From Microbacteriaceae bacterium (lineage in GTDB: Bacteria; Actinomycetota; Actinomycetes; Actinomycetales; Microbacteriaceae), in contig JAIXWK010000003.1 of NCBI GenBank assembly GCA_027491295.1, positions 248,001 through 312,000 of the forward strand: 64,000 bases of DNA. The letters are read 5' to 3'. Of the stretch, positions 40,367-44,646 are shown piece after piece (position 1 is the first letter of the stretch; every line of letters starts with the position of its first letter). The translations under genes were made by a program, and so were the position numbers. A model generated the notes under the pieces. The model saw only the letters and a list, made by a program, of their open reading frames with translations. It did not search any database and had not been told where the DNA came from.

Positions 40367-41074
40367 ATGTGCGGTCGATTTGTAATTGCAAAGACCACGG
40401 ACATGATTACAGAGCTGTTTGAAATAGATGAATTGGAAACCGATTCAGATTTCAGAAGCTTCAACGTTCCCCCAACCACTCAGATCCCCATGATTGTGGA
40501 GCGTGAAATTGACGGAATGCCATCCAGGCAGCTGCACTCCGCCCGCTGGGGACTTATCCCAAGCTGGGCAAAGGAAGTCTCAACCACGCCGCTGATCAAC
40601 GCCAGAATCGAATCTGTGCTGGATAAGCCAAGTTTTCAAGAGTCAGCGCTCTCCAAGCGCTGTGCAATCCCAGCCGATGGCTATTTCGAGTGGCAGAGCA
40701 CGATTGCCGATAGCAAGGTTCCCTACTTCATTTATCCAAGCGAAGGGATGCTGGCCTTCGCCGGTATCTATTCGTGGTGGCGAAACCCAGCCAAGGCTGC
40801 GGATGACCCAACCAGGTGGGTATTGACCGCATCGCTTCTAACCAAAGAGTCCGCTCCAGAGTTGGCCCAGATTCACAACCGCAACCCAGTGATGCTCTCC
40901 GAGGAGAATCTCAGCGCTTGGCTTGCCCCGGATTACCAGACCACCGCTGAGGTGTTGGCTGCGCTGAGCGATGAATCTGATGAGGTCGCAGCAGCGCTTG
41001 AATACCACGCTGTTTCTAGCGCCGTTGGTTCGGTTCAGAACAATTCCGCAGAACTTATTGCCAAAGTTAGCTAA
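40367..41074 (+). CDS. SOS response-associated peptidase (SRAP; YedK/HMCES-like)
   Basis: MCGRFV catalytic Cys2, RWGLIPSWAKE, NARIESV, RCAIPADGYFEW. Confidence 0.93.
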   Translation: MCGRFVIAKTTDMITELFEIDELETDSDFRSFNVPPTTQIPMIVEREIDGMPSRQLHSARWGLIPSWAKEVSTTPLINARIESVLDKPSFQESALSKRCAIPADGYFEWQSTIADSKVPYFIYPSEGMLAFAGIYSWWRNPAKAADDPTRWVLTASLLTKESAPELAQIHNRNPVMLSEENLSAWLAPDYQTTAEVLAALSDESDEVAAALEYHAVSSAVGSVQNNSAELIAKVS

Positions 41075-41080
41075 CTCATT

Positions 41081-41108
41081 TTGAAAATGTCGGTGCCACC
41101 AATACACT
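41081..41108 (+). promoter_or_regulatory. predicted promoter of the DUF6504-like/dnaE2 operon
   Basis: TTGAAA-16 bp-TACACT immediately upstream of the SOS box. Confidence 0.5.
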
Positions 41109-41117
41109 TCTAAGTAT

Positions 41118-41133
41118 TCGAACATTTGTTCGA
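41118..41133. promoter_or_regulatory. LexA/SOS box
   Basis: TCGAAC-ATTT-GTTCGA, exact match to the actinobacterial consensus TCGAAC-N4-GTTCGA. Confidence 0.9.
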
Positions 41134-41152
41134 TTTGCGAGAGGTTTGGGGA

Positions 41153-41440
41153 ATGCGACTAGAGGAAATTACCGGCGTGATGCTGGATTTTGACGGTGCT
41201 CCAGTTGGCTTTAACTATCAGGGGAAATCGTTCCTGGTGGCCTCCAGACCGGTCCGCTGGTATTCCAGAAGATTGTGGTGGGAAGATGCTGCTGCGGCCC
41301 CCAAAGGGGCTGGAGCTGCTCTTTTAGAGGTGGAGATGTGGCGCTTGTGGGCAGCAAGCGGGGATGTTCGCTTTTTCTTCGAGCTCAGCCACCAACAACC
41401 AGATGATCGCTGGGAAGTGAACCAACTCAATAGCCAATGA
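41153..41440 (+). CDS. DUF6504-like small protein, first gene of the SOS operon
   Basis: MRLEEITGVMLDFDGAPVGFNYQGKSFLVASRPVRWYSRRLWW; ATGA overlap with dnaE2; family named from memory. Confidence 0.6.
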   Translation: MRLEEITGVMLDFDGAPVGFNYQGKSFLVASRPVRWYSRRLWWEDAAAAPKGAGAALLEVEMWRLWAASGDVRFFFELSHQQPDDRWEVNQLNSQ

Positions 41441-44400
41441 GTTTTACCCACCTAAACGTATCTTCTGCATTTTCTGCCCACTACGGAGTCACTAGACCCG
41501 AACGTCTGGCTATTGCTGCCAAGGCGATGGGGTTTGATGCACTAGCCGTAACCGATCGAGATGGACTTTACGGAGCCATAAAACACATAGGTGCCTGTGT
41601 TCAGCTCGGCATCTCCCCGATCATCGGAGTAAACCTAAGGGTTGTGGATTTTGGCAGGGTCACCATCCTTGCTCACGGCCATGACAAAGGTATGGGTTGG
41701 GCTGGACTGTGCCGGATCATCTCTGCCGCGCAAACCGGGCGTGGAAAGCAAAAGAACATTGCTATCGATCTAAAGACGCTGGCCGAGCTAAGTAGGCACT
41801 GCACCATCTTGATAGGTGCCGAGAATATCGTTTCAGAGTCGGTGATTATCAATCCCGAACTGGCAAGACGGCGCCTTAGTGAACTGCAAAGCGAGCTTTC
41901 ATCCCCCGGTCAATTGGCAATCGAGGTGGTCACCCACCTAACTCAGCCCGGGGCTGCGCTATCGATTGAGCACGCCAGGGCAATGTTGGAGCTGGCGCGA
42001 ACCAGCAAATTGCCGAGCATATTGAGTAACGCCGTTAGGTACTTGGAGCCGGATGATGCCGTAACCGCGGATGTCTTAGATTCGGCGAGATTACTTGAGC
42101 CACTTGGGTTATTTGCACCGCAACCAAATGCTCAAGCATGGCTTAAGCCCAAATCCGAGATGGTGAGGTTGGCTCTTGAAATAACCGAAGACCCAAAGGG
42201 TTCAATTGAGCTATTGCGAAGCACCGCGAATCTGGCAGACCGCTGTCGATTGGAACCTGAGTCTGATTGCGGTTGGGGAAAACCTAAGACCCCGGAACAG
42301 TCAGCGCTTGGGATAACCGGCAACCCGTTTGAGGTGCTCTGGCAAAAAACTCACAGTGCCATTCATTGGCGCTACCCAAATGCACCGGCGGCAAAACTCG
42401 CCGAGATTCAACACCGCCTGAGTAAAGAGCTAATTGCGGTGAATCAGCTGGGATTTGCCACCTACTTCCTAACCGTTGCGGATGTGGCCCAGATGATTCG
42501 GGACATGAGCATTCGAATTGCAGCTAGAGGTTCTGGTGCCGGCTCGCTAATCAACTACCTGCTTGGAATCTCCGGGGTTGATCCAATCAGCGAGGGCTTG
42601 CTGTTTGAAAGGTTTCTATCTACCGAGCGCTCTACCCTGCCGGATATCGACATCGATGTCGAGTCGGCCCGTAGGCACGATATCTACAAGGCCATATTCC
42701 GCCGCTACGGTGGCGACCGAGTAACGCTGCTTTCGATGCAATCCACATACCGAGGACGCGGAGCGGTTAGGGATTCGGGACTCGCCCTTGGGATCGAAGA
42801 GGATCGAATTGATGAGATCGCCAAGAACATCTGGCGCTTTTCAGCCCGCAGCTTTCGCGAGGCAATGGCCAATAAGCCTGAGCTCGAGCAGTTTGCCAAA
42901 CAATCAACCGAAGATAGAAAACTGAATCTGCTGGTGGATATCACTCAGCGTTTGGACAGGCTGCCAAGACACATCTCGATGCACCCGTGCGGGGTGATTT
43001 TAGGAAACAGCAATCTATTGAATCTGACTCCGACCGAACCAAGTGGAGTGGGGCTGCCGATGAGTCAGTTCGATAAAGACGATATGGATCCAATGGGTTT
43101 TCTCAAACTCGATGTTCTCGGGGTCAGAATGCAATCAGCCATGGCATACACGATTCAGGAGATAGCCAGGGTTAGTGAAAAGGCCGTGGACCTAGATTCG
43201 GTTGATAGAGCAGACCCCGAGGTTTACAAAACCATTCGGACAACCAACACCCTGGGTATGTTCCAGATCGAATCTCCGGGTCAGCGAGAACTCACCGGAA
43301 AGCATCAGCCAACCAAATTCAATGACCTCACCCTGCAGATTTCACTGTTTCGCCCAGGTCCGATGAAGGGCAACATGATTTCGCCATACCTTGATGGCAG
43401 ACATGGTTTCCGCGAACCGGATTACATTCACCCTGATCTCAAGCCGATTCTGGAGGAAAGCTACGGGGTGGTGGTATTCCACGAGCAGTTGATGCGAATC
43501 ATGCAGGTTATGACCGGCTGCACGCTGGCTCGCGCCGATGAGCATCGCAGGCAGTTAGCCAAGCCGGAAAGGTCCGTGAAAATTGGTGAATACTTCAAGA
43601 AATCGGCTGCCGCCAGGGGCTACTCCAAAGAGGTGATTGAAAGAGTTTGGTCGATCATCGAAGGCTTTGGTTCGTTTGGGTTCTGCAAGGCTCACGGTGC
43701 CGCCTTTGCGCTCCCGACCTACCAGTCGGCTTGGCTCAAGACTCATCACCCCACCGAGTTCATAGCGGGTCTACTCACCCACGACCCAGGCATGTATCCC
43801 AGACGTTTGCTGCTGGCAGAAGCCAGAAGGCTCGGAGTCAAGCTACTGCCGATAGATGTGAACTATTCAACCGATGAATATCGGGTTGAGCGAATCGGTG
43901 AGCAGATCGGCGTCAGGATGGCGCTGTCCGACATAGCCGGCATCTCGAAGCCGGAACTTGAACGCATCAAGGCCCAGCAGCCCTTTGTAAATCTTGGCGA
44001 CTTCTACCTAAGGGCTAGGCCTTCGAGACGAACCCTGAGCCGGCTAGCCCTAATTGGTGCACTCGATACCCTTGCCAAGATCACGCCGCAAACCGACAGC
44101 AACCGCGGTGACCTGATGGTTCGAATAAGACAGCTAAGTGCTAAGGCTGCTCCGAAACTTGATCTGAACCAGATGGCATTTGATTTTGATGCCGAGGCGC
44201 CACTTGGCAAAGGTGGTCACAAGCCAAGCAGGCAGGAGCAAATCGAGCAGGAGTTATCAATCACCGGAATGGAGATATCCGGTCACCAGATCGAACAGTT
44301 CCAGCAGATGCTCGATGAGATGGGCGTGGTGCGGGCTAGCGAACTTATTTCGCTTCGCAGTAACACCGAGGTGCTAATTGCCGGGGTGAGAATCGCGACT

Positions 44401-44646
44401 CAATCCCCGCCAATGCGCAGTGGTAAGCGCGTGGTGTTTATCAGCCTGGACGATGGCTCTGGCTGTGCCGATGCAACTTTCTTTGACGAGTCTCAACGAA
44501 GGGCAAGCCAGGTGCTATTTCAAAATAAGTTGCTCCTGATATCAGGAAAGACCCGCCGCACCGGAGTGCGAGGGGTCTCGGTCCTGGCTGAGAATGCCTG
44601 GGATCTGCGACAGCTTTGGTCGCAGTGGCAATCAAAAGCTAGTTAG
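41437..44646 (+). CDS. dnaE2: error-prone DNA polymerase (DnaE2/ImuC)
   Basis: 1069-aa C-family polymerase with PHP domain, RGSGAGSLINYLLGI, LPDIDIDVESARR; SOS promoter. Confidence 0.92.
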   Translation: MSFTHLNVSSAFSAHYGVTRPERLAIAAKAMGFDALAVTDRDGLYGAIKHIGACVQLGISPIIGVNLRVVDFGRVTILAHGHDKGMGWAGLCRIISAAQTGRGKQKNIAIDLKTLAELSRHCTILIGAENIVSESVIINPELARRRLSELQSELSSPGQLAIEVVTHLTQPGAALSIEHARAMLELARTSKLPSILSNAVRYLEPDDAVTADVLDSARLLEPLGLFAPQPNAQAWLKPKSEMVRLALEITEDPKGSIELLRSTANLADRCRLEPESDCGWGKPKTPEQSALGITGNPFEVLWQKTHSAIHWRYPNAPAAKLAEIQHRLSKELIAVNQLGFATYFLTVADVAQMIRDMSIRIAARGSGAGSLINYLLGISGVDPISEGLLFERFLSTERSTLPDIDIDVESARRHDIYKAIFRRYGGDRVTLLSMQSTYRGRGAVRDSGLALGIEEDRIDEIAKNIWRFSARSFREAMANKPELEQFAKQSTEDRKLNLLVDITQRLDRLPRHISMHPCGVILGNSNLLNLTPTEPSGVGLPMSQFDKDDMDPMGFLKLDVLGVRMQSAMAYTIQEIARVSEKAVDLDSVDRADPEVYKTIRTTNTLGMFQIESPGQRELTGKHQPTKFNDLTLQISLFRPGPMKGNMISPYLDGRHGFREPDYIHPDLKPILEESYGVVVFHEQLMRIMQVMTGCTLARADEHRRQLAKPERSVKIGEYFKKSAAARGYSKEVIERVWSIIEGFGSFGFCKAHGAAFALPTYQSAWLKTHHPTEFIAGLLTHDPGMYPRRLLLAEARRLGVKLLPIDVNYSTDEYRVERIGEQIGVRMALSDIAGISKPELERIKAQQPFVNLGDFYLRARPSRRTLSRLALIGALDTLAKITPQTDSNRGDLMVRIRQLSAKAAPKLDLNQMAFDFDAEAPLGKGGHKPSRQEQIEQELSITGMEISGHQIEQFQQMLDEMGVVRASELISLRSNTEVLIAGVRIATQSPPMRSGKRVVFISLDDGSGCADATFFDESQRRASQVLFQNKLLLISGKTRRTGVRGVSVLAENAWDLRQLWSQWQSKAS

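Follow-up and report, generated by a model that had tools for sequence, protein, structure and literature searches.

The locus and its predicted SOS control

The locus lies in a window of 64,000 nucleotides from a Microbacteriaceae bacterium (contig JAIXWK010000003.1 of assembly GCA_027491295.1) and consists of two genes on the forward strand behind a putative promoter and a LexA-type box. The first gene (41153–41440) encodes a 95-aa protein classed here as a standalone ImuB-C (DUF6504); the second (41437–44646) encodes a 1069-aa DnaE2 polymerase of the DnaE2B type. In the window, the two reading frames are joined by an ATGA overlap. This overlap is not universal in the clade—the distance between the genes ranges from a gap of 0 to about 80 nt—and box, small gene, and dnaE2 are kept together in 25/25 clade loci. 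The small protein is present in all 14 near-complete genomes of the genus. Between near relatives, dN/dS amounts to 0.04–0.05 for the small gene, 0.02–0.04 for the first 1500 nt of dnaE2, and 0.03–0.05 for the neighboring SRAP gene; the small gene and dnaE2 are under strong purifying selection. An apparent ImuB-C–DnaE2 fusion in one genome (G095, an open frame of 1175 aa) was rejected, as a TAG stop parts the two genes. PADLOC returned no match.

The predicted promoter features a −35 hexamer TTGAAA (41081–41086, forward strand), in place of which part of the genus has GTAAAT, and, after a 16-nt spacer, a −10 hexamer TACACT (41103–41108, forward strand). A TA[CAG]ACT element is seen in all 25 upstream regions of the clade. 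The LexA/SOS box TCGAACATTTGTTCGA (41118–41133, no strand assigned) follows 10 nt after the −10 hexamer with 0 mismatches, and this arrangement of promoter and box, already pointed out in the first-pass annotation, agrees with the sequence base for base. In a pattern scan, TCGAAC-ATTT-GTTCGA at 41118–41133 is the sole perfect match in the 1,446,827-bp genome, compared with 0.08 perfect boxes expected from genome composition. Boxes with one mismatch are not enriched genome-wide over a reversed-pattern control, and the six boxes with up to two mismatches in the window are unexceptional, such a count being attained in 9 of 100 shuffles. Because of the lack of enrichment of one-mismatch boxes, weight is given only to the perfect box and, by their position, to the boxes of lexA and recA: both genes are encoded in the genome, each with a one-mismatch box upstream. 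Across the clade, the box is kept in 25/25 loci (24 perfect, one with a single mismatch), always 26–49 nt ahead of the mapped start of the small gene. Box, lexA, and recA together suggest that the operon at 41153–44646 is LexA-repressed and DNA-damage-inducible. LexA bound at the box, over the predicted transcription start, would keep the operon off; upon DNA damage, activated RecA would trigger self-cleavage of LexA, and the operon would be switched on.

The polymerase and its small partner

The polymerase features all expected DnaE2 domains (PF07733, PF17657, PF02811, PF14579, and PF01336). Asp403 and Asp405 of the motif PDIDID (42643–42651, forward strand) align with the catalytic residues D401 and D403 of E. 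coli alpha, and Asp559 of the motif KLD (43111–43113, forward strand) aligns with D555. The PHP site is degraded in the alignment: it reads HLNVSSAFSAHYG compared with HLHVHxxYSMLDG of DnaE1. In the tree, the window DnaE2 groups with ImuB-C-linked DnaE2, apart from the ImuB-linked DnaE2A of the same family, with a support of 1.0, and by sequence it is assigned to the DnaE2B type. At the usual position of a clamp motif, residues 912–917 form a putative β-clamp-binding motif, QMAFDF (44170–44187, forward strand), where other DnaE2B proteins have QLSLPL, QLSLF, QLAFEV, or QLDF; a loose pattern, [QE][LMIT]x[FLY], is matched at this position by 62 of 79 DnaE2B. The notion that DnaE2B carries a clamp motif and DnaE2A none was dropped: DnaE2A has QPPLF/L or a similar sequence there, and the motif is thus not unique to DnaE2B. 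In Mycobacterium, the clamp contact shown to be important resides in ImuB (PMC10421592). Lacking ImuB, the window DnaE2 would have to contact the clamp directly. The dnaE2 mutant of S. coelicolor has no phenotype (PMC3919608), so an SOS-inducible DnaE2 is not necessarily mutagenic everywhere.

The small protein of the window scores 19.2 bits against PF20114 (DUF6504), under the cut-off of 24.2, and the same model matches all 25 members of its family, at best with 4e-11. PF20114 also matches the ImuB-C of Deinococcus deserti plasmid 1 at 6.3e-7. This protein is encoded between a Y-family gene and dnaE, bears the RefSeq name DUF6504 family protein, and is a published ImuB-C (PMC8072749). A further match (1.2e-4) covers the C-terminus, residues 426–500, of Sinorhizobium ImuB. 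In hhalign, a 65-sequence profile of the small-protein family finds D. deserti ImuB-C with an E of 2.4e-7. Direct similarity to the C-termini of ImuB proteins from the same bacterial family is weak, with hhalign P values of 0.005–0.012 in a shared W/WW/WR register, and HMM E values of 0.43 at best are not significant. Hence, ImuB-C membership rests on the DUF6504 bridge, by which the 95-aa protein is classed as a standalone ImuB-C. The first-pass annotation had suggested an accessory factor in this small protein, which fits such an identity. The AlphaFold2 model is β-rich, with seven strands, two short helices, and a pLDDT of 88; searches of the PDB and BFVD with this model gave no match at E ≤ 0.001. 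The literature likewise describes the ImuB-C fold as having no close counterpart in the PDB (PMC12926913). The C-terminal Trp, W87, is invariant. A scan of viral contigs for ImuB C-termini found no relatives.

Genomic background and related systems

The Y-family domain PF00817 has no match in the genome of the window or in any of 23 genomes from the genus, compared with matches in 141 of 150 family members. ImuA was found in none of 11 genomes with the cassette, the single weak match—in the genome itself and a near-identical one—being recA, and was detected in 8/8 ImuB-bearing control genomes with E ≤ 1e-41. The search for imuA and imuB across the genome had been set beforehand as the refuting test for the first-pass annotation; neither gene was found. 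The description of a LexA-controlled DUF6504–dnaE2 operon without imuA and imuB is thereby supported. Nine genomes in the family sample lack Y-family genes, and seven of these carry the small protein; in the eighth (G012), dnaE2 borders a contig end, which explains the missing ImuB-C match, and G015, the ninth, is a 0.9-Mb genome with a single C-family match. One genome of the genus is identical at the locus to 'Candidatus Aquiluna' sp. IMCC13023. Another genome, G010, likely represents Rhodoluna lacicola; it carries the box, ImuB-C, and DnaE2 and no Y-family gene, and no SRAP gene was found in the flanking stretch searched. Rhodoluna lacicola is naturally transformable, and knockouts have been made (PMC11577799).

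In 2013, Aravind et al. described pairs of standalone ImuB-C and DnaE2, some of them accompanied by an inactive Y-family protein, and also SRAP in SOS neighborhoods (PMC3765255). Timinskas and colleagues (2019, 2026) delineated mutasome variants, including a DnaE2B group that is linked to ImuB-C alone and restricted to Actinobacteria (PMC12926913). According to the 2026 study, which contains co-occurrence data and AlphaFold models for the DnaE2–[ImuB-C] type, most genomes with DnaE2 are fairly large, and most of those without Y-family proteins are very small (PMC12926913). The module is hence already described for Actinobacteria (2013, 2026); the Y-family-free background is the distinctive point. 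Collections were scanned with DnaE2B as the query, the distant ImuB-C alignment being too diverse. The 80 named DnaE2B loci belong by title to Micrococcales or other Actinobacteria—many are Arthrobacter, with A. alpinus itself not included. ImuB-C lies upstream on the same strand in 76 of them, and the retrieved flanking sequences of all 80 are free of Y-family ORFs, so the cassette is ordinary for its type. ImuB-C alone is the usual partner of DnaE2B across Micrococcales.

Three known systems come close to the locus. The DnaE2–[ImuB-C] module of the fifth DnaE2B group, from Arthrobacter alpinus (PMC12926913), likewise consists only of DnaE2B and a standalone ImuB-C, in an actinobacterial genome devoid of imuA and imuB. 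The window differs by its genome of 1.4 Mb, by a whole genus without any Y-family polymerase, and by an SOS box and SRAP context resolved for the locus. The Deinococcus system shares a standalone ImuB-C (DUF6504) directly 5′ of dnaE2, SOS control, and the lack of imuA, and its UV mutagenesis experimentally requires DnaE2. However, its operon also holds the Y-family protein ImuY, which is needed for mutagenesis and has no counterpart in the window genome. With the Mycobacterium ImuA′–ImuB–DnaE2 mutasome (PMC10421592), the locus has in common the SOS-type control of DnaE2 and the ImuB-C domain, there the C-terminus of ImuB. In contrast to it, the window genome has neither ImuA′ nor the clamp-binding hub ImuB, and the window DnaE2 belongs to another clade and has its own clamp-type motif. 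The locus does not qualify as an ImuA–ImuB–DnaE2 mutasome: searches of the genome found no ImuB (PF00817) and no ImuA.

Several further arrangements of these genes were observed. In some Microbacteriaceae, a standalone DUF6504 gene has an SOS box to itself, either perfect or nearly so (locus L093, 5986–6273, in G028; L097; L094). In G028, this gene lies near a complete ImuA–ImuB–DnaE2A cluster, and a free copy and a fused ImuB-C region hence coexist. On the Pseudarthrobacter plasmid NZ_CP061722.1 (L271, 7986–8318), an ImuB-C-like gene annotated as hypothetical (48% identity over 67 aa) has no polymerase gene within the 16-kb stretch around it. The Rubrobacter tropicus plasmid NZ_CP045120.1 (L273, 2597–7333) features lexA divergent from a 147-aa DUF6504-type protein and a DnaE, and the annotation shows no Y-family gene in the vicinity—possibly a deeper-branching version of the two-gene unit. 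The conjugative plasmid NZ_CP110115.1 of Arthrobacter sp. YA7-1 (L268, 5992–10281) carries DUF6504–dnaE with SRAP convergent just downstream; the SRAP/DUF6504/dnaE trio is hence also carried by mobile DNA.

Function of the two-gene module and the place of SRAP

We consider the locus best explained as a two-subunit error-prone polymerase of the DnaE2–[ImuB-C] type that is induced in the SOS response, and put the probability of this functional reading, drawn from the sequence, at roughly three in four. According to the alignment, DnaE2B would combine an active polymerase site with a degraded PHP exonuclease site; its own clamp motif would recruit it to stalled forks, and it would extend past lesions. 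ImuB-C would dock onto the polymerase, probably at its PHP domain, and stabilize or guide it. In published models, the corresponding domain of ImuB sits on the PHP domain of DnaE2 (PMC12926913). Since searches of the organism and its genus turned up neither a Y-family hub nor ImuA, the two-gene system must act without either.

A different role for the small protein was proposed by Aravind et al., who also list ImuB-C beside Ku, ligase, SplB, and SRAP genes (PMC3765255): instead of serving as a polymerase subunit, it would sense damaged DNA on its own and recruit repair proteins, the operon reflecting co-regulation. The plasmid-borne copy without dnaE2 in its surrounding 16-kb stretch and the standalone copies near ImuA–ImuB–DnaE2 clusters in some genomes are in line with such a sensor. 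Yet the pairing with DnaE2B is near-obligate (76/80), and the published models seat the domain on the polymerase itself, which makes the sensor an unlikely explanation of the locus.

The gene upstream of the operon encodes an SRAP protein of the YedK/HMCES-like type (40367–41074, forward strand; 235 aa; PF02586 with E 8.7e-59). The domain spans residues 1–223, and Cys2 and the catalytic-site motifs are kept, the translation containing MCGRF, INAR, GYFEW, and IHNR. SRAP lies directly upstream in 18/25 clade loci, and all full-length SRAP genes found in the genus sit by the cassette. This arrangement, together with the adjacency of SRAP and DUF6504–dnaE in another orientation on the Arthrobacter conjugative plasmid, would suit a single damage-tolerance cassette of SRAP, ImuB-C, and DnaE2 in which SRAP protects abasic sites and DnaE2 subsequently bypasses them. 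However, SRAP is located upstream of the LexA box, outside the predicted SOS transcript, and lacks its own LexA box even when one mismatch is allowed. In addition, six near-complete genomes from the genus (G151, G154, G161, G165, G166, and G167) contain no SRAP gene anywhere but keep box, ImuB-C, and DnaE2. A joint cassette of all three proteins hence appears improbable, slightly more so than the sensor. From the first-pass annotation, SRAP as the upstream neighbor holds, whereas its inclusion in the cassette is not supported, the gene being boxless and missing from cassette-bearing genomes. SRAP is a recurrent but optional neighbor and not a needed part; it may be an abasic-site protein with its own expression, a frequent companion of the module and dispensable to it. 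The six SRAP-less genomes, including the Aquiluna IMCC13023 one, form a natural SRAP knock-out set.

A reading of the locus as what is left, after genome streamlining, of a decaying ancestral ImuA–ImuB–DnaE2 mutasome would agree with the small genomes and missing Y-family polymerases, but is largely refuted and very improbable: the DnaE2 stems from the other clade and has intact catalytic residues, dN/dS is 0.02–0.05, the cassette is kept in 14/14 near-complete genomes, and the same two-gene module occurs in larger relatives and on plasmids. Likewise, the earlier wording of a "reduced" version of ImuA–ImuB–DnaE2 is not supported, as DnaE2B is a separate clade with ImuB-C alone as its usual partner.

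The two-subunit polymerase would carry a stronger implication: ImuB-C and DnaE2B may be the only dedicated translesion system of the clade, devoid of a Y-family hub, ImuA, or a RecA-binding (RecA-NT) subunit, with DnaE2 contacting the clamp directly. We regard the chances for and against this as evenly balanced. The experimentally studied DnaE2 mutasomes in the cited literature all include a Y-family protein, either ImuB or ImuY. If true, this arrangement would break the rule, based on the Mycobacterium and Deinococcus systems, that DnaE2 depends on a partner of the Y family. The streamlined freshwater bacteria of the Luna cluster are naturally free of confounding Y-family genes and would provide a clean place for testing the ImuB-C/DnaE2 pair alone—the more so as the set contains a genome, likely that of Rhodoluna lacicola, with box, ImuB-C, and DnaE2 in a transformable species amenable to knockouts.
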